A stretch of 64,000 nucleotides of DNA, from NCBI GenBank assembly GCA_001443365.1, contig LDXL01000007.1, positions 1 to 64,000 on the forward strand. Reading direction: 5' to 3'. This stretch comes from Thaumarchaeota archaeon CSP1-1 (GTDB lineage Archaea > Thermoproteota > Nitrososphaeria > Nitrososphaerales > Nitrosopumilaceae). Below are positions 1 to 25,617 of this stretch, one piece after another. The notes under the pieces were generated by a model. That model was not told the DNA's origin. It saw only the letters and a program-made list of their open reading frames with translations, and did not search any database. The position numbers and the translations under genes are program-made. Each line of letters starts with the position of its first letter. Positions within the stretch are counted from its first letter, which is position 1.

Positions 1-279
1 ACCAGAAGTAATCTTAAGTGGAATGCCTGTTGCGTTTACTAAGGCTTTAGGTACATTAGCAACTGCGGTGATTTTACCAGAAATCTCTAAGCTGCTACTT
101 GCCTCTCCCAGACTGGAAATGATTGTTGTCTTTGCTTTCTGAGTTGTTGCAAAACCCATATTGAGAACTACAAAGGCCAAAGCTGCAGCGACAATTACAA
201 ATGCAATTAGTACGATAGCAGACTCTATACCGATGATTCCTCGATGGGTATGTCTATGTCCTTTTTGAATAAGGTTCAT
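1..279 (-). CDS. flaB: Archaellin (archaeal flagellin), N-terminal part, cut by window edge
   Basis: The 93 visible codons run leftward from an ATG at 279 and stay open to the window edge, so the C-terminus is missing. The start is a short basic, His-rich leader followed by RGIIGIESAIVLIAFV and a long hydrophobic helix, then a Thr/Ser-rich stretch. This is the class III signal peptide of archaellins: the FlaK/PibD peptidase is expected to cut after the Arg-Gly and the helix forms the filament core. A TATA-like box lies about 28 bases upstream, consistent with a nearly leaderless message. It could also be another type IV pilin-like protein, but GIESAIVLIAF followed by AFVVLNMGFATTQ is typical of thaumarchaeal archaellins. 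Confidence 0.85.
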   Translation of the reverse strand, partial: MNLIQKGHRHTHRGIIGIESAIVLIAFVIVAAALAFVVLNMGFATTQKAKTTIISSLGEASSSLEISGKITAVANVPKALVNATGIPLKITSG

Positions 280-302: not shown

Positions 303-310
303 GGTATATC
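303..310 (-). promoter_or_regulatory. TATA box of the archaellin gene
   Basis: On the minus strand the sequence reads GATATACC, centred about 28 bases before the archaellin ATG at 279. This spacing fits an archaeal TATA box with transcription starting at or just before the start codon. Assigned by eye from position and composition. Confidence 0.45.
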
Positions 311-441
311 CTAGAGTATGATCGATATGATCAAACATTGATTTTTGGGAAATTCACTTTTGATTTAAATGAATTAAGAATAAAGTAATCTATGATAAAA
401 AATATTAGATTATTAAAAAATTCATATGAAATTTGATGATC

Positions 442-552: not shown

Positions 553-1362
553 TTGAGTCCGCAAAAGGAGTTAATAGAATCACTCTCGTATTTTGGTCTT
601 GAAAAATCCGATGCAATAGTGTATCTAGGTCTTCTTCAAATGGGATCAGTTACAGTAGGAACAATGTCTACAAAACTAGAAATTGATAGAGGTAAAGCCT
701 ACAGGTCTCTTAATAAATTGCGGAATTTAGGTCTAGTTTCTACTACCTTTTCTAACCCAACAATTTGTCAGGCTGTAGAGCCTGAGGAAGCATTGACAAT
801 TATCATTCAAAGAAAAGAAGATGAAACTGTTACAATGCAAAAGCTTTCAAGAAAAATTGTTACAGATCTTAAGCAAATTGCTCATGAACCAAATGTTTCA
901 GAGGTTTCCTCATTTTCAATTATACAAGGGCGCTCAAACATTTATGCAAGAATTGGAAAATTTATTCAAGATGCAACAAAAACTGTATACCTTGTAACCA
1001 CTGTAGAAGATATTTTAAGAATGTATCATACCTCTATTCCAGAAAAAATAAAAATTTGCCAGCAAAATGGTTCCAAAGTCCTATTACTTTCAGAAACAAA
1101 AAGTGAAAATCTTTTGCCACTTATTGAAAGACTAGGTGCAGATGAGACACGAATTGGTAAGCTTCCTTCAAAGAGTAGGATGATTGTAGAGGATGAAAGT
1201 CAGCTAATTATGTCTGGGTCAATCAAAGAGTCAATGAATCTTAATGATGAAAATGACTCTATTTTGTACACAAATTCTTCTGAGATGATTAACAACATGT
1301 TTAGTCTGTGTAGTCACTTGTGGAAAAAATCAAAACCAATTGAGATTATAAAGACAAAATAA
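553..1362 (+). CDS. TrmB-type transcriptional regulator
   Basis: This 269-residue protein has an N-terminal winged helix-turn-helix (about residues 8-75) with LGLEKSDAIVYLGLLQMG and RGKAYRSLNKLRNLGLV, the pattern of TrmB-family sugar or metabolite-responsive archaeal regulators. Residues about 115-265 form a mixed alpha/beta domain similar to the phospholipase D-like effector region found in TrmB proteins. The start is a TTG with a TATA-like box at 26 bases. It stands alone, divergent from the archaellin gene and convergent with the secreted protein that ends at 1380. Its targets cannot be read from sequence; the palindrome at 442 and the shared elements at 2325 and 8341 are candidates. Confidence 0.8.
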   Translation: MSPQKELIESLSYFGLEKSDAIVYLGLLQMGSVTVGTMSTKLEIDRGKAYRSLNKLRNLGLVSTTFSNPTICQAVEPEEALTIIIQRKEDETVTMQKLSRKIVTDLKQIAHEPNVSEVSSFSIIQGRSNIYARIGKFIQDATKTVYLVTTVEDILRMYHTSIPEKIKICQQNGSKVLLLSETKSENLLPLIERLGADETRIGKLPSKSRMIVEDESQLIMSGSIKESMNLNDENDSILYTNSSEMINNMFSLCSHLWKKSKPIEIIKTK

Positions 1363-1383
1363 AATTTTTAATTAAAATTTTAG
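1361..1383. terminator. AT-rich bidirectional terminator between convergent genes
   Basis: Between the convergent stop codons there is a run of A and T blocks (AAAATTTTTAATTAAAATTTT) that gives a T-tract on both strands. Archaeal termination mainly needs such T-tracts, so it can serve both genes. Confidence 0.4.
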
Positions 1384-2273
1384 TTAAATTGTGGGATTGA
1401 GATTTGAACAATTTCGCTCTCAAAGTTGTTTCCATATCTATCTGTAAACATTAACTTAGCTTTTCCATATTCAGTAAAGCCAGACTTGATATCAGAAGTT
1501 TTGATCTCCCAAGCAAATACATTCTCACCAGCTTCACTCTCACCAAATGCTTCAAAAGATTTTTCATAGTTAGATTTTCTTATAGAAAAGGCATCCAGAT
1601 ATAGAATTCGATTTTTATCATCCATTATTACAACCGATATAGTTCCATCTGGGTTTACAGGGCTTTTGTTTATGTCAATAAGTTTGAATTGTAGATGATA
1701 CAAATCTGTATTTTTGTGTCCTTGTACTTTAAAGTCTTCAATCCTATCAATTTTTGGCCAAACTATAAGATCTTCAGGTAGAGGTTTTAGTTTAGCTAGA
1801 GGCTTAGATTGTATTTCAGATTCTAATGTTAGCACATTGTTTTCAACTAAATATTGTAATGCATTTATGAAATCTTGATCACTTATTTTATTCTGACCCC
1901 ACCACAGAGTAGTTACCTTAATCCAAGACACAACAATTTTTTGTTGTTCGTCAATAGTGTCAACAAATATTCCGTTAGTATCTAATTCATCATGTATTAC
2001 ACATTCATCGGTTGATTCATCCAAAACTAAACCTGGACCACATGAGGGCTCAGGAATTTCAGGTTCTGGAATTACTAGCAATTTATTTTCTACTAGATAT
2101 TGTAATGCGCTAACAAAATCTTTATCACTTATTTTATCTTCACCCCACCATACTGCTGTAGTTTTTAACCACGATGGAAGAATTTCTTCTTGTGCTGAGA
2201 CATTTTCTATTAAACTAGAGAATAAACCTATAGAAAAAAAAGTTAAAACTAGTAATTTATAACGATTTTTCAT
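1380..2273 (-). CDS. Secreted protein with two WWG/ALQYLVEN repeats
   Basis: I place the start at the ATG at 2273 (297 residues) because it gives a compact signal peptide (KNRYKLLVLTFF...VSAQ); an in-frame ATG at 2309 would add 12 residues and lies too close to the presumed TATA region. Two copies of a roughly 37-residue repeat follow, near residues 32-68 and 115-148. Each has a W-[LI]-K-x-T-T-x-W-W-G core, then KISDxDF and ALQYLVEN. A proline-rich linker with two cysteines separates them. The last 120 residues are beta-rich. Such repeats are common in exported thaumarchaeal proteins but their function is not known to me. Its upstream region shares a long element with the operon at 8415. Confidence 0.7.
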   Translation of the reverse strand: MKNRYKLLVLTFFSIGLFSSLIENVSAQEEILPSWLKTTAVWWGEDKISDKDFVSALQYLVENKLLVIPEPEIPEPSCGPGLVLDESTDECVIHDELDTNGIFVDTIDEQQKIVVSWIKVTTLWWGQNKISDQDFINALQYLVENNVLTLESEIQSKPLAKLKPLPEDLIVWPKIDRIEDFKVQGHKNTDLYHLQFKLIDINKSPVNPDGTISVVIMDDKNRILYLDAFSIRKSNYEKSFEAFGESEAGENVFAWEIKTSDIKSGFTEYGKAKLMFTDRYGNNFESEIVQISIPQFN

Positions 2274-2324
2274 CAAATTAAAATTATTTCTTTGTGTTAG
2301 AATCATCATTTTATAATATTATTT

Positions 2325-2383
2325 TTAAAAATTCCATCTCATATCCAATATGATGTTCAGAATGAACATATGATTTTTTTATT
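2325..2383 (-). promoter_or_regulatory. Shared promoter/operator element, copy A
   Basis: Read on the minus strand this segment has an A-run, then a perfect palindrome ATGTTC-N5-GAACAT (arms 2364-2369 and 2353-2358), then CATATTGGATATGAGA and an A/T-rich TATA-like stretch leading to the secreted-protein gene. Almost the same sequence, in the same order and orientation, lies before the CBS-like gene at 8415. The identity over about 45 bases is far beyond chance, so co-regulation is a reasonable inference. Confidence 0.65.
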
Positions 2384-2384
2384 C

Positions 2385-4829
2385 TTATATTGGTACTTGT
2401 TTTGTTATAGTAGGATTTTTTATTTTAATTGTGCCTTTCTTTATGAGTATATACCCCATTAGAATAATGACTGACGGGACAATGATTATCACAGGATCAA
2501 TACCACCAATTTCAGGTTTTATGAATTGTGGTTCTTCTTCAGCAAATGCCAAAAATTCAGAAGTTGAATTAACTCTTACAGTTTTGGTAACTGTACTAGG
2601 TGAATAATATGAACTGGATACACTTGCTTTGATATTTACTGCACTACCAGATGTAGAGATAATTGATGCAATTGCTTCTCCAGTGGTTCCAGTTTTTGAA
2701 TCTGATAATTGAAGTATACCACCATCTACATTCCATTGTACTCCCAATCCTGAAAGAGGAAGATCATCTTGTTTTGCTTCAATCTTTACAGTAAATACTT
2801 CACCACTTTCAATAATTTCAGGTGCATTTAGAAGGAGACTAGGTGTAAGACTTGAAATTTTAATATTTGTTGTGCTAAGTGGTAATCCTTCTGATAAAGC
2901 AGATATTTCTGTAACACCACTTGTTTTTGGTCCTGCATCAAATAAAGTATAGTATTCGCCTTTTTTAATTGTCAAAGTATGTGGAACTTGGATCATTGAT
3001 TCATCATTTACAACAAAAGTTATTTCAATGTCTTCAGTTGCAAAAACTGGAAGGTTTTGAGAATTTACAAGCTGAACTGAAAAAACGTCATTAGTTCCTG
3101 TGAAAATTGTTTCAGAGTGATCAATAATTATGTTAGCTGGTTTTAAAGATAAACTTTCAATAGTCAGGGTAGCATCTGGGAAATCGTTAACAGTAAATTG
3201 TAAAGTGTCAGATCCTGAATCGATGGCTTTAGTGTTTAACATAATTAGATCATCTCCACTAAAAACTGGTTTTGTTTCTACATCAAAGATTTTACTTGGT
3301 GAAACAAATAGATTTGAATTTTTAGGAAATTTTGTAACTTGAGAATTTTCTGTAAAATATAGAACGATTGGAAATTCAGTGTCTTTGAGAACTTTAGTAA
3401 TTAATGGTTCTGCAATTAATTGAAGTGATGTTTCATCTGATCCAAAAACTTCGACCACAGTTGGAGATGAGGATTCACTTTCTACTTCTACTACTGGATT
3501 TATTTCAAATGCACCGTCTATCCCGTTGGGAATACTATGCCCTACCTTACCAAAAACTAAAGCTGAACCTTCTCCAACTTGAAGGAAAACATCATCAATT
3601 GAAAGAAAATCGTTATCAGATGAATCTAGTTTTATTTCTAGATTCTTATCAGATCTGATTGGAAAATCGCTTTCATCTTCAAGAAATATAATTCCTAATA
3701 ATTCCTTATTTCCAGTGGCAAATATTGGTAATCCCTCAAATTTTACAAATCTATCACCATCATTTGATGGTGCATTAGCGACATTCTGATCATAAAAGAC
3801 CGCTTGAATTGTATCTGATTCTAAGGTCAGTGGTTCTCCTGAAGTTATAGTAACAAGATACTCACCTGTTTTTCCACCCACTAAGGAAAATGTATCATAA
3901 CCCCAATAGGATCCTTTTTTTATCGTGATGGTGCCTGTTTTGTCCCCAATATCGGCATTAGGACTAGTATTTTGATTTGCAAAAATATCGTTGGTTACTT
4001 TATATTTTACTGTAATATCTTTACTTGCGATAACAGGTTCTTCACTACCTTCTAATTGAAGTTGAACTATTATGTATGCTTTAGATGATCCAAAAGTATT
4101 GATTTCTTCTTGAACGAGATAAAGTTTAACTTGTAGATCATCTTGTTCGTCTACTGTTATGACATCACTTTTAGTTTCCATACCTAGCGCTGTGACAAAG
4201 ATGTTAGTTTTACCAGTATTACCTGAATCTTTTACAATAAAATGTGTACCAGTAAAATACTCGCCCTTCTTTATTACTAGATTTTCCTGAGATATGTCAA
4301 GTATGTTATTATTTGCAACACTTAGTGAGACACTAACATCTTCTGCTGCTTTTACTGGAAATCCATCAGCATCAGCTAACTCAACAGAAACTAATCCTCT
4401 GAATGGCCCAGCAGATGAAAAGGTATCTGGAACAACTTTAACAAGAAGCTGTTCCTGATTGAAAACATTTCCATAAACTGTTACAGGTAATTCCTGTGAT
4501 GAAAATCCTGGAGCTGCAAGAAATAGTTTTGTTGTACCAGCTTTAATCCCTTTAACAGTTACTTCTGATACAAATCCTGATTCACTATCTTTAACAGTGA
4601 GAACTCGGATTATTTTAGAATCTAAACTTGTAACAGTTAATCCCGGTATCTTCTCTGGCACAAGGCTTGTTCCTTTTTTTGCAAAAATGTGTATCATTCC
4701 TTCCTTGTCTTCAACTAATTTTGTGGGAATGAATCTTGTACCAAATTCAAAATTACTGTCTGCACCATATGTTAAACTAGGTGTTAAAATACTCATTATT
4801 ACCAATACTAGTATAATTCCTACCTTCAA
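2385..4829 (-). CDS. Large secreted, membrane-anchored beta-sandwich protein
   Basis: This 814-residue protein starts at a TTG and has an N-terminal signal peptide (about residues 1-23, ending LTYGA) and a single C-terminal membrane helix (about 776-796, VIIIVPSVIILMGYILI) followed by a short Lys-rich tail. The exported part is Thr/Ser/Val-rich and looks like a string of Ig-like beta domains. A recurring IKKG-x-Y motif occurs at least three times (KKGEYFTG, KKGSYWGY, KKGEYYTL), which marks an internal repeat. The architecture suggests a cell-surface protein tethered in the membrane, perhaps associated with the S-layer or an adhesin. I recognise no enzymatic motif. It lies upstream of, and on the same strand as, the repeat protein ending at 1380, but that gene has its own promoter element. 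Confidence 0.7.
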   Translation of the reverse strand: MKVGIILVLVIMSILTPSLTYGADSNFEFGTRFIPTKLVEDKEGMIHIFAKKGTSLVPEKIPGLTVTSLDSKIIRVLTVKDSESGFVSEVTVKGIKAGTTKLFLAAPGFSSQELPVTVYGNVFNQEQLLVKVVPDTFSSAGPFRGLVSVELADADGFPVKAAEDVSVSLSVANNNILDISQENLVIKKGEYFTGTHFIVKDSGNTGKTNIFVTALGMETKSDVITVDEQDDLQVKLYLVQEEINTFGSSKAYIIVQLQLEGSEEPVIASKDITVKYKVTNDIFANQNTSPNADIGDKTGTITIKKGSYWGYDTFSLVGGKTGEYLVTITSGEPLTLESDTIQAVFYDQNVANAPSNDGDRFVKFEGLPIFATGNKELLGIIFLEDESDFPIRSDKNLEIKLDSSDNDFLSIDDVFLQVGEGSALVFGKVGHSIPNGIDGAFEINPVVEVESESSSPTVVEVFGSDETSLQLIAEPLITKVLKDTEFPIVLYFTENSQVTKFPKNSNLFVSPSKIFDVETKPVFSGDDLIMLNTKAIDSGSDTLQFTVNDFPDATLTIESLSLKPANIIIDHSETIFTGTNDVFSVQLVNSQNLPVFATEDIEITFVVNDESMIQVPHTLTIKKGEYYTLFDAGPKTSGVTEISALSEGLPLSTTNIKISSLTPSLLLNAPEIIESGEVFTVKIEAKQDDLPLSGLGVQWNVDGGILQLSDSKTGTTGEAIASIISTSGSAVNIKASVSSSYYSPSTVTKTVRVNSTSEFLAFAEEEPQFIKPEIGGIDPVIIIVPSVIILMGYILIKKGTIKIKNPTITKQVPI

Positions 4830-4927: not shown

Positions 4928-7900
4928 ATGGCCCCAGCATATAACGTAGAGCAAAATAAGCTCAGCATCTTAGATGCACTTCTTTTGCGTCTATTCAATG
5001 AACAAAAAATCAAACTAAAAGTTGATTCAAAAGATAGATTAGAAATTCCTAGTAATTTAAAATCAAAGATAGAAGGAACTCTAAATGTTCGTGCCAATTT
5101 ATTATCAAAAACATTAGAACAAAAAAACGATATTTCCACAGACAAACAAATAGAAACTTTAATTGGAAATTTTTATTATTATACTAATCAATTCGATAAA
5201 GCAGCGATTTTTTATGACAAAGCTAGCAAAATGGATCCAAATTTTATTGAGCCAATATTTAACAAAGGAGATTTACTTGCAAAAATTGGAAAACATGAAG
5301 AAGCTATTTTATGTTATGATATTGCACTGAGTATTGATCCTAATTATTTTGATGCATTATGTTCTAAAGGAGATTCTCTTGTTACAATTTCTAAACATAA
5401 TGAAGCAATTGCTTGTTATGATAAAATTTTAGAAATAGATCCTAATTATTTTGATGCTTTATACAATAAAGGTCTTGCATTAACAAAGACAGGAAGACAT
5501 GAAGAAGCAATAACATTCTATGATCAAACGTGTAACTTAAAACCAAATCATATTCCATCTTTATACAACAAGGGATATTCACTTGCAAAATTAGGGAAAC
5601 ACAATGAAGCACTTACCCTTTGTGACAAAGCATTAGAAATTGATCCTGATTTTTTTGATGCATTAATTGCAAAAGGAATGGTTTTGACTATAAATGGTAG
5701 TTATGAAGAGGCATTGTATTATTTTAACAAGACTTTAGAGTTAGATCCTAAACATCCAGATGTTCTATACAACAAGGGTCTATGTTTAGCTAAGCTTGGA
5801 AAATATGAATCAGCATTATCATATTACAACAAGGCATTAGAAGTTGATCATAATCCAGAAATTTTGCTTTACAAAGGTAATGCATATGTACAACTTGGAA
5901 AGTATACTGATGCTCTTATTTCCTACGACAGTGCATTAACAATTAAACCAGATTATTTTGATGCACTATTCAGGAAGGGATTACTCCTAACACATATTGG
6001 AAAACCTGGTGATGCTATAGTATTCTATGATGATGCTCTAAAGATAAAACCGGATTATTTTGATGCGTTATTTCATAAAGGACTCTTACTTGAGCAGCAA
6101 GGAAAACAAGATGAAGCCTTAGATTGCTTTGAGCGAGCAAGTACAATTGAACCAAATCATTCTGAAGTCAAATATCATAAAGGTCGTTGCCTAGCACATC
6201 TTGGGAAATATGATGATGCTAAAGCATGTTATGACGAGGCTCTAACGATTAATCCCCAGTTTTCTGAGGCATTATTTCACAAGGGTTTGTTATATGCATT
6301 TCTTGGAACTCATGATGATGCTTTAACATATTATGATAAGGCTCTAAAAATTAATCCACAGCATTCAGATATACTTTTACACAAAGGCAGAACGCTTGCG
6401 CATCTTGGTAAGCCTCAAGAAGCCTTGAGCTATTACAATAAAGCTCTAAAGATTAATCCTCAACATTCAGAAGTTCTATTTCATAAAGGAATGTTGCTTG
6501 AACATATGGGAAAACATGGTGATGCTATTGCAGATTATGATAAAGCGCTTAAGATTATTCCAAATTATGTTGAAGTTCTATACCACAAAGGTTTGCTACT
6601 TGAACAGCTTGGAAATCACGGTGATGCTATATTATGTTATGATAGAGCTTTAAAGACAGTACCTGATAATTTTGATGTGCTTTTTCGCAAAGGAATATTA
6701 CTTGCACGTTTTGGAAAACATGGTGACGCTATAGTTTGCTATGATGATGCTCTAAAAATAGCACCTGACAATTTTGATGCTATGTTTCAAAAGGGATTAG
6801 TACTTGAACATCTTGGAAACTACAAAGATGCAATAAAATGTTTTGATAAAGCAATTGATAAAAATCCTAAACATTCTGAGGTATTATTACACAAAGGTTT
6901 GGCTTTATTTTCTATTAATGAATACGAAACTGCAATTAAATTATTCGATCAAGTTTTAACGAATATTCCAAATCATATACTAGCTCTATTCAACAAGGGA
7001 TTGATTTTCGGAAAACTTGGTCTAAATGATGATGCAATACGTTGCTTTGATAAGGTCTTATCCGTAGATGAAAACCATACACTTTCATTATTACACAAAG
7101 GTCTTACATTCACTCGTCTTAAAAAATTCAATGAAGCAATCTTATGTTTCAATAAGGTTCTTGAGATTGAACCAGATAACATTTCGGCTCTAGTTAAGAA
7201 GGCAGATTCTCTTGGAAGTTTGGGAATTACAAATGATGCTATCGCATTTTATGATAAGGCATTAAAGATCAGTCCAGAAAATGTTGAGGCATTATACAAC
7301 AAAGCAATATCTCTTTCAAGCATTTCAAAACACCAAAATGCGATTTACTGCTTTGATAAAGTGCTTGAAATTAACCCACATCATAGTAATGCAGTGTATA
7401 ATAAGGGTCGTTCACTAGTCCAGCAATCAATTTATCCCTTGGCACTTGCTTGTTTTGATAAGGCCTTTGAGTTAGAGCCTGATAATCTTGAGCCGTTAAT
7501 TCAAAAAGGCTTAGTGTTTTCTAAATTGAGAAACCACAAAGAAGCACTTGCTTGCTTTAATTATGTACTTGATAAAGAACCAGGCAATTTTACGGCCTTA
7601 TACAACAAGGGACTCTCATTATTGGCCATAGGTCAATATGAAAAGGCACTTTTACAATTTGATAGTGCACTAAAACAAGAACCATCTAATGTTGATGTAT
7701 TGTTAAACAAGGGACGTGCATTTTCAATTCTAGGTCAATACGAAAAATCATTGTCAAGTTTTGATGGAGTACTCGATATTGATCCAGAAAATTCAGATGC
7801 ACTATTCAGTAAAGCACTCTCATTAGTAACTCTCGGGAAATATGAACAATCAATTCCATTCTTTGATAAAGCCCTAAATATTGTTCCTGCCGATATAGAA

Positions 7901-8257
7901 ATCCTTCACAACAAAGGAATAGCATTACAGGCTATTTGTAAATATGAAGATGCGATTTTTTGTTTTGATAAGATATTATCAATAGATAAAGAAAATTCTG
8001 AGGTTTTGTATAAAAAGGCAAAAACAGTGTTAATGCAAGGAAACATATTTGATTCATTAAGTATTCTTCGAAAGGTAATCGAGCTTGAACCAATCTATAA
8101 AGAGATAATTAAGAAAGAAATTCTATTTAATAGATTAAGAGATAACCTACTTTTCAAAGATATAATCAGAGGAAAAACTGAATTTGATAAACTTGATGAC
8201 GAAAAACCATTTTATGGTTTTGTAAATAAAACTAAGATTATTGAAAATAATTTCTAA
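4928..8257 (+). CDS. Giant tetratricopeptide (TPR) repeat protein
   Basis: After about 75 residues that resemble no domain I know, the 1109-residue chain is an almost unbroken array of 34-residue TPR units, about 29-30 of them, up to near residue 1070. Each has the pattern ALxxKGxxLxxxGxxxEAIxxYDKALxIxPxxxx. No signal peptide or membrane helix is visible, so it is probably a cytosolic scaffold for protein-protein contacts. Several neighbouring units are close copies (for instance two adjacent copies containing DALKIKPDYFDALF), which points to recent tandem duplication. It is transcribed divergently from the surface protein and upstream of the CBS/protease unit, which has its own promoter. The ligand is unknown. 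Confidence 0.85.
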   Translation: MAPAYNVEQNKLSILDALLLRLFNEQKIKLKVDSKDRLEIPSNLKSKIEGTLNVRANLLSKTLEQKNDISTDKQIETLIGNFYYYTNQFDKAAIFYDKASKMDPNFIEPIFNKGDLLAKIGKHEEAILCYDIALSIDPNYFDALCSKGDSLVTISKHNEAIACYDKILEIDPNYFDALYNKGLALTKTGRHEEAITFYDQTCNLKPNHIPSLYNKGYSLAKLGKHNEALTLCDKALEIDPDFFDALIAKGMVLTINGSYEEALYYFNKTLELDPKHPDVLYNKGLCLAKLGKYESALSYYNKALEVDHNPEILLYKGNAYVQLGKYTDALISYDSALTIKPDYFDALFRKGLLLTHIGKPGDAIVFYDDALKIKPDYFDALFHKGLLLEQQGKQDEALDCFERASTIEPNHSEVKYHKGRCLAHLGKYDDAKACYDEALTINPQFSEALFHKGLLYAFLGTHDDALTYYDKALKINPQHSDILLHKGRTLAHLGKPQEALSYYNKALKINPQHSEVLFHKGMLLEHMGKHGDAIADYDKALKIIPNYVEVLYHKGLLLEQLGNHGDAILCYDRALKTVPDNFDVLFRKGILLARFGKHGDAIVCYDDALKIAPDNFDAMFQKGLVLEHLGNYKDAIKCFDKAIDKNPKHSEVLLHKGLALFSINEYETAIKLFDQVLTNIPNHILALFNKGLIFGKLGLNDDAIRCFDKVLSVDENHTLSLLHKGLTFTRLKKFNEAILCFNKVLEIEPDNISALVKKADSLGSLGITNDAIAFYDKALKISPENVEALYNKAISLSSISKHQNAIYCFDKVLEINPHHSNAVYNKGRSLVQQSIYPLALACFDKAFELEPDNLEPLIQKGLVFSKLRNHKEALACFNYVLDKEPGNFTALYNKGLSLLAIGQYEKALLQFDSALKQEPSNVDVLLNKGRAFSILGQYEKSLSSFDGVLDIDPENSDALFSKALSLVTLGKYEQSIPFFDKALNIVPADIEILHNKGIALQAICKYEDAIFCFDKILSIDKENSEVLYKKAKTVLMQGNIFDSLSILRKVIELEPIYKEIIKKEILFNRLRDNLLFKDIIRGKTEFDKLDDEKPFYGFVNKTKIIENNF

Positions 8258-8340
8258 AAAATTACGACCAAAAACTGACTATGTTTTTGTAAAATTACAA
8301 CAACACATTATCTTGATAGTTTTTTACAGATAAAAGAATC

Positions 8341-8400
8341 AAAAAATCGTATGTTCACTACGAACATCATATTGGATATGAGAGGGATTTTTAATTAAAT
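8341..8400 (+). promoter_or_regulatory. Shared promoter/operator element, copy B
   Basis: Palindrome ATGTTC-N5-GAACAT (arms 8351-8356 and 8362-8367) is preceded by an A-run and followed by CATATTGGATATGAGA and then an A/T-rich TATA-like stretch ending near the ATG at 8415. It matches copy A at 2325-2383 in sequence, order and orientation. The palindrome centre is about 56 bases before the ATG, just upstream of the TATA region, where an activator or repressor would bind. Confidence 0.65.
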
Positions 8401-8414
8401 TATATTCAACAGGT

Positions 8415-9344
8415 ATGAAAATGATTAACAATCAAAAAATTACAAGTGCATGGAAAAAGAATCTAAATAAAATCTTAAACAAAAGTTCTGACACAAAAGA
8501 TAATCAATTATTATTCCAATCAATCAATACTGGAAAAAACCTTGAATTACAAGAATGTCTTTTTGATGATTTATTACCAATTTCTCTCTCCTCATCACCA
8601 ATTTCAAGTATTGGAAGTATCGATAATGTTTGGATTGCGTGTTCAATGCTATCAAGAGTATCAGATACCACAAACAACTTGGTTGTATTAGAAAAAGAAT
8701 ATCCTTTAGGAATAATAGGTGCAAGAGAAATTTTGCGTGGACTTCTCAAAAACCCTACACCTTACTATTTTCATGATATTTTAGCCCAAGAAATAATGAA
8801 CAGAAGGTTTTATCTTGATACTAGAAACGCTAGACTTGATAAACTACTTGAACAAATGCATAAGACAAAAAATGAATTTACTATATTACAAAATACTAAA
8901 CATAGTTTCTCTGCAGTTTCCATTAGAGAAATTCTTGAAATTGGTGCGCTTTGTAAAACTGATTTCCAAGCTTCTGATTTAGCTGACCCAAAAATCAAAA
9001 TTTTCAGACGAGATGATACTGTTGAAGATATAATAAAATCATTGATACATGATAATACCGAAGTCTTAGTACTAGAAAATGAATCTTTATTCATTGATCC
9101 TATGGCAATTATTGAAAAAATTGCTGGAGATTTAAACTACCTAAAAGATTGTAATAACTTTTTAGATTTGAATGCTAGTATTTTCAAACTTCAACAACCC
9201 AAATTAATTCCTGAAAAATTATCACTCTCTGAAATTTGTCAAACCATGCTTTACATGAAACATCCCTACATAATGACATCAAACAAATTGTTGACACCTA
9301 GAAATATACTAGAAATTTTGAGTAAGGATTTGAAAATTGAATGA
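8415..9344 (+). CDS. CBS-domain-like protein, partner of membrane protease
   Basis: The 309-residue protein shows four successive segments with the beta-alpha-beta pattern of CBS motifs, roughly residues 55-108, 112-170, 185-235 and 255-305; the clearest is the first, with DNVWIACSMLSRV then LVVLEKEYPLGIIGAREILR. CBS pairs usually bind adenosyl ligands and regulate a partner. The similarity is weak and partly inferred. No signal peptide is seen, so the protein is cytosolic. An ATG two codons in (8421) is an alternative start. Its stop overlaps the start of the metalloprotease gene by 4 bases, so the two are translationally coupled. It is controlled by the shared palindromic element. Confidence 0.55.
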   Translation: MKMINNQKITSAWKKNLNKILNKSSDTKDNQLLFQSINTGKNLELQECLFDDLLPISLSSSPISSIGSIDNVWIACSMLSRVSDTTNNLVVLEKEYPLGIIGAREILRGLLKNPTPYYFHDILAQEIMNRRFYLDTRNARLDKLLEQMHKTKNEFTILQNTKHSFSAVSIREILEIGALCKTDFQASDLADPKIKIFRRDDTVEDIIKSLIHDNTEVLVLENESLFIDPMAIIEKIAGDLNYLKDCNNFLDLNASIFKLQQPKLIPEKLSLSEICQTMLYMKHPYIMTSNKLLTPRNILEILSKDLKIE

Positions 9345-10312
9345 AAGAGATTAGCAGATTAAAATCACATGTAGATATAATGAAAAAAGAACTTGATTAC
9401 ACTACCAAACAGATCAAACTTTTAGAAAAAAATCGAAAAGTTTCTGAGTGGGAGAAAATTGATCATATTAATGGAAAATCAATTGATGAGTTAAAACATC
9501 AAGAAAAGAATCTATCTCAAGAGATTACTCAAATTCAAAAAGAAATTAAAAAATCACAATCAAAAACCTTGATAATTACCGAATTATCTCTTCTGCCAGT
9601 AGTTGTTTTACTTATTTTAATTTCAGGTTTAGGAAACTCTATTATGGATTTTACAAATGATGAGACTACATCATTTAAGACAAGGCATTTAATTGAGAAT
9701 CTAAGAGGCGATACTGTAGATACATGGAAGTCATGGAGGCTGGTTGGTACTACACTAAACGTAAATGTTCTAAATGCTAAAGGATTATCAGAAAATAGAA
9801 TTGATGTAATAAAAAATGCAATAACTTCAGAAGAATCACTTGAAATTGATGATTCACTCACTCATAAAGGTCCTAAGGGATTTAGCTCAACATACTTTAC
9901 AGGATGGGCAGGTGCACTGAAGAATATAGCATCAAAAGATACGTTATACAATATCCCTACTGACTTTAATGTAATCACCTCAAATGGTGGAGAAGGAGAT
10001 GTAATAATTACTCTTTCAAATCTGAGAGATGGGGACGGTTATACGGGCTATACAAAATCAGTAGTTGATGGAAACGAAATTCTAAAGTCATTCATTACAA
10101 TTTATGATGTAACTAACTTAACTGATGAACAATTAGGTACTATTCTTAGACATGAATTTGGTCATGCACTTGGTCTTGGACACTCTACTGCTCCAGAAGA
10201 TCTAATGGCGCCGAATATTGATATGACAGTCCCTTATATTTCTGAATGCAATACCAATGCAATTAGAGATTTGTATAATGGGATACAAGGAAGTACAGTT
10301 TGTGAAAAATAG
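9341..10312 (+). CDS. Membrane-tethered metzincin (matrixin-like) metalloprotease
   Basis: The 323-residue protein has three parts: an N-terminal charged coiled coil (about residues 1-75), one membrane helix (about 80-100, LSLLPVVVLLILISGLG) and a C-terminal protease domain. The zinc site HEFGHALGLGH matches HExxHxxGxxH, and the following DLMAP supplies the Met-turn expected of metzincins such as matrixins. With the basic coiled coil inside, the catalytic domain should face outside the cell. It overlaps the CBS-like gene by 4 bases, which suggests that an intracellular sensor and an external protease work together. Substrate is unknown; the surface proteins upstream are candidates. Confidence 0.8.
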   Translation: MKEISRLKSHVDIMKKELDYTTKQIKLLEKNRKVSEWEKIDHINGKSIDELKHQEKNLSQEITQIQKEIKKSQSKTLIITELSLLPVVVLLILISGLGNSIMDFTNDETTSFKTRHLIENLRGDTVDTWKSWRLVGTTLNVNVLNAKGLSENRIDVIKNAITSEESLEIDDSLTHKGPKGFSSTYFTGWAGALKNIASKDTLYNIPTDFNVITSNGGEGDVIITLSNLRDGDGYTGYTKSVVDGNEILKSFITIYDVTNLTDEQLGTILRHEFGHALGLGHSTAPEDLMAPNIDMTVPYISECNTNAIRDLYNGIQGSTVCEK

Positions 10313-25029: not shown

Positions 25030-25617
25030 TTATTCCTTTAATTCCTTGAGGGTATGTTCAAGATCCTCAATTTCGTCATTGAATAACTCAACCATCTCCT
25101 TCAGAAGAAGTTTTTGTTGTTCAGATTCTCTTTTTTCTGCATTTATTCTACTGGCAATTTTTTCAAGACTTGCTATTTTCTCATTCAACGTAGTAGTTAA
25201 GGTAAGCAAAAATGATTCATATTGTTTTAATTCTATGGATAGTGATGTATCTGTTGCCTTTAGTGATTCTTCATCACCACCCTCAATAAATTCAGTTAAT
25301 CGTCCTCGTAAAACTCGGAGCTTGGTTTCAGTTCCTGTAAGTTTTTCGAGATTTGTTGATATTTTTGGAGAAACGGAGGAATTCTTTTTATTTTCATAAT
25401 TTGATAGCTCCATCCTTGCAAGTTCCTCACTCATGTAACTTGTCATTTTTTTTACAAGAAGTCCTTGTTTTGTAGCCTCATTTTGTTGATGTCTTACTTC
25501 GTCTCTAATTTTTTCAAGATTATTGATCTCATCATTTAAGGATCTGGTAATTTTAAGTAGAAATTCAGTACTTTGAATTAAGTTTCTAATAGAGTATGAA
25601 CCAACAAGTTTAGTCAT
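25030..25617 (-). CDS. Coiled-coil protein of unknown function
   Basis: The 195 residues are almost all charged, helical heptads (LEKIRDEVRHQQNEATKQG; LNEKIASLEKIASRINAEK), with no membrane segment. Two halves resemble each other: an ESFLLT-or-EFLLKITRSLNDEI-like stretch followed by a Glu/Lys helix, so the protein may be an internal duplication. Function is unknown. Its upstream region has a GTTC-N5-GAAC palindrome (25671-25683). Confidence 0.6.
   Translation of the reverse strand: MTKLVGSYSIRNLIQSTEFLLKITRSLNDEINNLEKIRDEVRHQQNEATKQGLLVKKMTSYMSEELARMELSNYENKKNSSVSPKISTNLEKLTGTETKLRVLRGRLTEFIEGGDEESLKATDTSLSIELKQYESFLLTLTTTLNEKIASLEKIASRINAEKRESEQQKLLLKEMVELFNDEIEDLEHTLKELKE

Follow-up and report, generated by a model that had tools for sequence, protein, structure and literature searches.

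Upstream of a CBS/metalloprotease operon and again upstream of the gene for a secreted repeat protein lies the same inverted repeat followed by the same flank, which raises the question of whether the two copies form a shared regulatory element and, if so, which genes it serves and which protein binds it. The window, i.e., the whole stretch analysed, comprises 64 kb at the start of contig C7 of its genome (G000, a member of genus g1). A sequence-only reading of this DNA had described two copies of a palindrome with perfect arms and differing spacers; both were located, and they are the sole exact matches to ATGTTC-N5-GAACAT in the entire 1,358,434-base (1.36-Mb) genome. The features concerned are:

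1380-2309, minus strand: secreted protein with WWG/ALQYLVE repeats, behind copy A
2337-2369, minus strand: shared block of copy A, before the secreted repeat gene
2341-2344, minus strand: putative TATA box of copy A (ATAT), 31 nt before the ATG at 2309
2353-2369, minus strand: operator of copy A, ATGTTC-ATTCT-GAACAT, upstream of the secreted repeat protein and kept in G001 and G002
8351-8383, plus strand: shared block of copy B, before the CBS/metalloprotease operon
8351-8367, plus strand: operator of copy B, ATGTTC-ACTAC-GAACAT, kept in all four genus members
8376-8379, plus strand: putative TATA box of copy B (ATAT), 9 nt after GAACA and 35 nt before the ATG at 8415
8415-9344, plus strand: four-CBS protein, first gene of the operon behind copy B
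9341-10312, plus strand: membrane-anchored matrixin-type (M10) metalloprotease, second gene of the operon

Both copies have the same orientation relative to their own genes, and in each the palindrome is followed by CATATTGGATATGAGA, a sequence that occurs exactly twice in the window (the third-best match has three mismatches). The reversed pattern of the palindrome, used as a control, has no match in the genome, and the exact palindrome is absent from 200 simulated 64-kb windows with the dinucleotide composition of the real one. The spacers are symmetric as well (R-NNN-Y), with a purine in the first and a pyrimidine in the last position of essentially all CBS-operon sites compared across genera; because A-C and G-T combinations are frequent among them, this symmetry points to recognition by a protein dimer and not to an RNA stem.

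Within the genus, the 33-bp block is present with zero to three mismatches in four of four genomes (G000 to G003). The two copies occupy the same gene context in G000, G001, and G002; in G003, whose 4.1-kb contig breaks off short of the other site, only copy B is present. The relatives' records with the block, which belong to Nitrosopumilales or Thaumarchaeota archaea, are JADNRU010000026, JACZUQ010000031, and BFAR01000008. When the four genomes are aligned, the palindrome and the ATATTGGATATG block stand out as much more conserved than most of the gap around them. A moderately degenerate version of the full block has no other match among 84,980 species genomes, and searches with the copy B region yielded only short, AT-rich chance matches among phage records and no match among viral contigs.

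Relatives of the CBS protein are found in 73 of the 151 genomes of the family, and the dyad lies upstream of the closest of them in three further genera, as TCGTATGTTC-RNNNY-GAACATCGAATTGATTATCA in g17, in the imperfect form TGTCC-ACACT-GAACA...TTGGATATCA in g22, and as CTGTTC-AATGT-GAACATACTAGAAAATATCATT in g9. The search of Nitrosopumilaceae genomes that the sequence-only reading had proposed thus recovered the element upstream of CBS orthologs both in the genus and in g17, g22, and g9, and its proposal of a shared operator-promoter with the pattern of a dimeric regulator agrees with a symmetric dyad that is kept upstream of orthologs. On sequence grounds, the element is real, conserved, and shared, an operator-promoter whose layout bears the signature of recognition by a dimeric protein.

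The gene neighbourhood offers an explanation for the presence of two copies. The order in g17 and g22 is an archaellum/chemotaxis cluster, a TrmB-type regulator, one or more TPR proteins, an Ig-like surface protein, the element, and then CBS, M10, PyrB, and PyrI; in g9, it is TrmB, Ig-like protein, element, CBS, and M10. In the genus of the window, the TPR/Ig-like segment runs the opposite way to that in g17 and g22, and each of its ends carries an element:

553-1362, plus strand: TrmB-type regulator, divergent from an archaellin gene; candidate binder of the element
2385-4829, minus strand: large Ig-like surface protein, directly upstream of the element in other genera and inverted here
4928-8257, plus strand: TPR repeat protein of the conserved cluster

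Copy A directly follows the Ig-like gene, as does the ancestral element, and now faces the secreted repeat gene. In G002, the downstream promoter sequence is also common to both copies, suggesting that they evolved together or were converted. The most plausible reading of copy A is that the promoter was duplicated along with the inversion: the TPR/Ig-like segment would have been inverted in the ancestor of the genus, leaving the promoter at both ends, and copy A would now drive the genus-specific secreted repeat protein. Full-length relatives of this protein were found only in genus g1 among the genomes searched. Its WWG/ALQYLVE repeat, which has no convincing Pfam or NCBIfam model, is found in numerous proteins of all genomes searched, with 26 matches in that of the window.

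An inverted segment with an element copy at each end would also be expected if the shared block were only duplicated DNA, a scar of the inversion or an inverted repeat with no role in regulation. This is very improbable, because site B is conserved in genera that lack the inversion and the element stands at a fixed distance from the start codon before unrelated genes at other loci. The sequence-only reading had itself named a recent duplication without regulatory effect as a possible refutation; an old rearrangement does account for part of the history of copy A, but both copies have been retained in at least three species. The pure-duplication reading was rejected, as it is contradicted by conservation outside the inverted segment.

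A third copy of the element had escaped the sequence-only reading, which had linked only two transcripts. It forms the promoter of the archaellin gene at the very start of the window:

1-279, minus strand: archaellin gene, cut by the contig end (PF01917, E 4.2e-14, over the cut-off)
306-333, minus strand: third copy, archaellin promoter, TGATC-ATATC-GATCA-TACTCTAGG-ATAT, with 26 nt between its end and the archaellin ATG at 279

The archaellin, which is divergent from the TrmB gene, is the only PF01917 match found in the genome, and this promoter layout recurs in front of almost every archaellin gene in the g17 and g22 clusters. Hybrid sites in archaellin promoters, in which a TGTTC arm is combined with a GATCA arm or a CGATC arm with a GAACA arm, link the archaellin (GATC-type) and CBS variants of the element. 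When a matrix trained on CBS/M10 sites only, with archaellin sites excluded from the training, was applied to 57 distinct archaellin promoters, its top-scoring position lay 24-26 nt before the start codon in about 52 of them; the promoters come partly from related genomes and are hence non-independent. Most of the archaellin sites score 9 to 25 bits, compared with 4.0 bits at the 99th percentile of shuffled upstream regions, and imperfect arms are frequent among them, above all in g9 and g12. The sites of CheY and CBS genes lie farther from the start codon (35-130 nt).

Archaeal TATA boxes are centred 26/27 bp upstream of the transcription start (PMC5512572). The fixed position of the archaellin sites therefore suggests that WTAT, invariably 9 nt after GAACA, is likely the TATA box of leaderless transcripts, which would place the operator directly upstream of the BRE. 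Where the sequence-only reading had an operator followed by a TATA-like region, the GATAT closing the shared block is probably the TATA box itself. A palindrome with a 6-bp stem and a 5-nt loop could also form a hairpin in the 5' leader, if transcribed, and act like a riboswitch or terminator. That the inverted repeat has this function is highly unlikely, because the element ends 24-26 nt before the archaellin start codons, where a leaderless promoter is expected, the spacer ends are R/Y-symmetric without pairing, and the arms at some archaellin sites are imperfect; the RNA-hairpin reading was rejected on these three points.

The membership of the regulon was explored by pattern searches among 151 Nitrosopumilaceae genomes with the generalised element YGWTC-RNNNY-GAWCA-N9-WTAT (28 bp). 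With zero mismatches, 110 matches were obtained in 54 of the 151 genomes, compared with 5 for the reversed pattern, and the spacing to WTAT is constant in all element types. Most matches are followed by genes for archaellins, CheY or CheB, by the metalloprotease operon, or by the gene for a small membrane protein. The genome of the window has four strict copies, which precede the archaellin gene, the secreted repeat protein, the CBS/M10 operon, and cheY. The last of these, at position 10590 of contig C2, stands before a 127-aa CheY (Response_reg, E 1.2e-27), which closes a series of genes for FlaH, FlaI, FlaJ, MCP, CheW, CheB, CheA, CheC, and CheR, whose names, except that of CheY, are based on sequence reading and gene order. 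The assembly seems to be broken inside the archaellum cluster, with the archaellin at the start of C7 and FlaH-FlaI-FlaJ and the che genes on the 16.7-kb contig C2 (1-16727).

Targets in other genera comprise archaellins, CheB (g22), CheY (g9), FlaH (genome G123), an M10 homolog directly behind the element (g12 and g14), and the small membrane protein, which begins with MSRWD (g17). The small surface-remodelling regulon envisaged by the sequence-only reading was right to include the secreted repeat and CBS/metalloprotease genes, but it was too narrow, as archaellin, CheY, CheB, and FlaH genes also carry the element. Judged from these sequence patterns, the element is probably the promoter of an archaellum and chemotaxis regulon of archaellated Nitrosopumilaceae, to which several surface and signalling genes would also belong.

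In the case of the MSRWD protein, the element lies 24-25 nt before the start in both g1 and g17 (loci L225, L186, and L231). The protein has no convincing Pfam family (one sub-threshold match to DUF7475) and is possibly a new motility-linked protein. When one mismatch was allowed, sites shared with sister genomes were found before a response regulator, a probable chemoreceptor-like protein, an MSRWD ortholog, and two coiled-coil proteins; all of these are candidates only, because the control also matches at that level. The window contains one weaker candidate copy, with a near-identical site in G003 (contig C79):

25657-25684, minus strand: CGTTCATGCCGAACA...TTTT, differing from the pattern at one position, in the gap ahead of an ORF for a 195-aa coiled-coil protein (25030-25617)

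Genus g18 has no archaellins over the cut-off, and its element-like sites precede small stand-alone response regulators. Element-like sites before small response regulators are also present in G092 (g14), where archaellins are absent or weak (loci of both groups: L188, L189, L190, and L195). It is possible that these sites represent a second regulon with a similar dyad, in which other factors use the palindrome.

The candidate regulator encoded at 553 has a TrmB winged helix (PF01978, E 3.9e-14, 52.7 bits vs. a cut-off of 25.6) in an N-terminal domain that is predicted with confidence. Its match to the C-terminal sugar-binding domain PF11495 covers 135 of 233 positions with 20.2 bits (cut-off 22.2), and the model has low confidence in this region. 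The gene adjoins archaellins in five genera (g1, g17, g22, g12, and g14) and the CBS operon in g9. Among 48 genomes tested, in which a close relative over 300 bits was scored as presence, archaellins over the cut-off were found in 27 of 27 TrmB-bearing genomes, and archaellins in 1 of 21 without TrmB; the lone exception, G153, is 77% complete, and G002 and G003, whose contigs end before the archaellum-linked gene, were scored positive by a paralog. TrmB and archaellins were lost within the genera g9, g12, and g14, so that the association does not reflect a single split in the tree. No element-like site was found near the start of the TrmB gene, and the archaellin site (306-333) lies about 220 bp away in the divergent gap.

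Archaellated genomes encode several TrmB paralogs that are 54-72% identical and have nearly the same recognition helix (DRGKxYR). The archaellum-linked copies had been expected to form a single clade, which was rejected, as they form no clean clade. Based on linkage to and co-occurrence with archaellum genes, the 553 gene is still the best candidate, as the sequence-only reading had proposed, and its product is most likely the binder of the element; the assignment to the TrmB family is stronger than the choice of this gene.

The same operator and regulon could instead be served by another protein, either a TrmB paralog, such as that at position 49616 of contig C8 in the genome of the window, or an unlinked winged-helix protein, such as a relative of CsmR, with the 553 gene merely a neighbour. 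The shared DRGKxYR helix, the 72% identity of the 553 protein to a paralog in its own genome, the report of CsmR homologs in Nitrosopumilaceae (PMC13286277), and the g18 sites in genomes without a close TrmB all favour a different binder. We consider it unlikely, though worth keeping in mind, because in every element-bearing genus with testable contigs it is the 553 gene that has stayed next to archaellins or the CBS operon, whereas csmR shows no co-occurrence with archaellins in Thaumarchaeota (PMC13286277).

The best explanation, which we hold with reasonable confidence, combines a 28-bp module, an archaellum/chemotaxis regulon, a TrmB-type activator, and the origin of copy A by inversion. 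The sequence comparisons directly show the module with its constant spacing, the genes it precedes, and how it has been conserved; activation by the TrmB protein is deduced by analogy and preferred over repression. An inverted-repeat operator directly upstream of BRE/TATA would constitute a regulated promoter module, in which a dimer of the TrmB-type winged-helix protein would bind just upstream of the BRE and recruit TBP/TFB, resulting in activation. Activation is the preferred model because the position of the operator resembles that of TrmBL1 and EarA sites. A repressor on or next to BRE/TATA, blocking TFB/TBP until motility is needed, is rather improbable: the operator is close enough to the core promoter for occlusion to be conceivable, and TrmB of Pyrococcus furiosus represses from a site overlapping BRE/TATA (PMC4706686, PMC4158304), but the operator described here stops before the BRE region and covers neither TATA nor the start site. 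Moreover, TrmBL1 sites upstream of the BRE activate (PMC4706686), as does EarA (PMC5512572).

EarA activates the weak archaellum promoter of Methanococcus from sites immediately upstream of the BRE, and an improved BRE bypasses EarA (PMC5512572). Like the element described here, EarA sites in the fla/arl promoters of Methanococcus maripaludis and P. furiosus lie directly upstream of the BRE/TATA of archaellin promoters (PMC5512572, PMC10665913), an arrangement that is assigned by spacing in our case, and EarA is a dedicated archaellum regulator, which resembles the proposed role of the TrmB candidate. By contrast, M. maripaludis has four 6-bp consensus sites in one operon promoter, whereas each archaellin gene here has one 17-bp inverted repeat; the present element also precedes cheY, the CBS/M10 operon, and other genes, and its candidate binder is of the TrmB type.

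TrmBL1 of Pyrococcus binds TATCAC-N5-GTGATA and activates when this site is upstream of BRE/TATA (PMC4706686). The Thermococcales glycolytic motif (TGM; PMC4706686) shares with the element a regulator of the TrmB family (here the candidate binder), 6-bp arms, a 5-bp spacer, and the position upstream of BRE/TATA, but the arms are TGWTC/GAWCA instead of TATCAC-N5-GTGATA, the targets are motility genes and not those of sugar metabolism, and the effector domain of the 553 protein is only a sub-threshold match. The element probably works in the manner of EarA- or TrmBL1-type activation; its motif sets it apart from the TGM, and it is likened to EarA in function and position. CsmR of Haloferax volcanii, which is required for motility, is likewise a DNA-binding regulator encoded beside archaellin genes (PMC13286277); unlike the TrmB candidate, it is a small (13 kDa) protein of the Lrp/AsnC type, and its thaumarchaeal homologs do not co-occur with archaellins (PMC13286277). 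As far as the available accounts of Sulfolobus ArnA/B and ArnR extend, these regulators are comparable in controlling archaellum transcription in a TACK archaeon, with different proteins and a different promoter arrangement.

Archaellum regulation is known in methanogens, Thermococcales, Sulfolobus, and Haloferax. In the literature searched, no regulator or operator of archaellum or motility genes was found for Thaumarchaeota, and a review of TrmB proteins calls those of Thaumarchaeota unspecified (PMC4158304). The present analysis yields a 28-bp promoter code, a candidate regulator, and a list of targets, all of which can be tested in archaellated ammonia oxidizers (for example, Nitrosotenuis or related organisms), and it leads to the prediction that the motility programme includes a four-CBS protein and an external, so far uncharacterised metalloprotease. 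A bolder version, which we regard as doubtful, holds that swimming in ammonia-oxidizing archaea is governed by a dedicated master switch, a TrmB subfamily specific to their lineage, and that the M10 protease and the four-CBS protein, which resembles an adenylate sensor, are integral to motility; if true, the protease might, for example, open the S-layer for the archaellum, and the CBS protein might couple swimming to the energy state.

The metalloprotease (9341-10312) matches Peptidase_M10 with an E-value of 1.6e-8 and 35.1 bits (cut-off 24) and combines a coiled coil at the N-terminus with a hydrophobic stretch and a matrixin domain that carries the zinc site HEFGHALGLGH (HExxHxxGxxH); the topology deduced from this layout indicates that the protein is probably external. 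In the CBS protein, the match to PF00571 is sub-threshold (20.1 bits vs. a cut-off of 24), and the predicted fold (mean pLDDT 81) shows a four-CBS match across the whole chain, with the AMP sensors of archaea and eukaryotes, SSO3205-AMP, MJ1225, and AMPK gamma, as the closest folds (E 4e-12 to 5e-11). A link to the energy state of the cell is therefore possible. Its predicted fold also resembles the archaeal ribosome-associated CBS proteins Sri/Dri (PDB 9zng, 9znf, and 9e7f), and two paralogs are encoded in the same genome (C1:65771 and C1:103502).

A separate conserved block is located upstream of copy B:

8283-8303, plus strand: GTTTTTGTAAAATTACAACAA, single in the window

This block (21-22 bp), which contains the inverted repeat TTGTAA-N2-TTACAA, is identical in the four species of the genus, in which its surroundings have diverged, and may be a second operator or a terminator.
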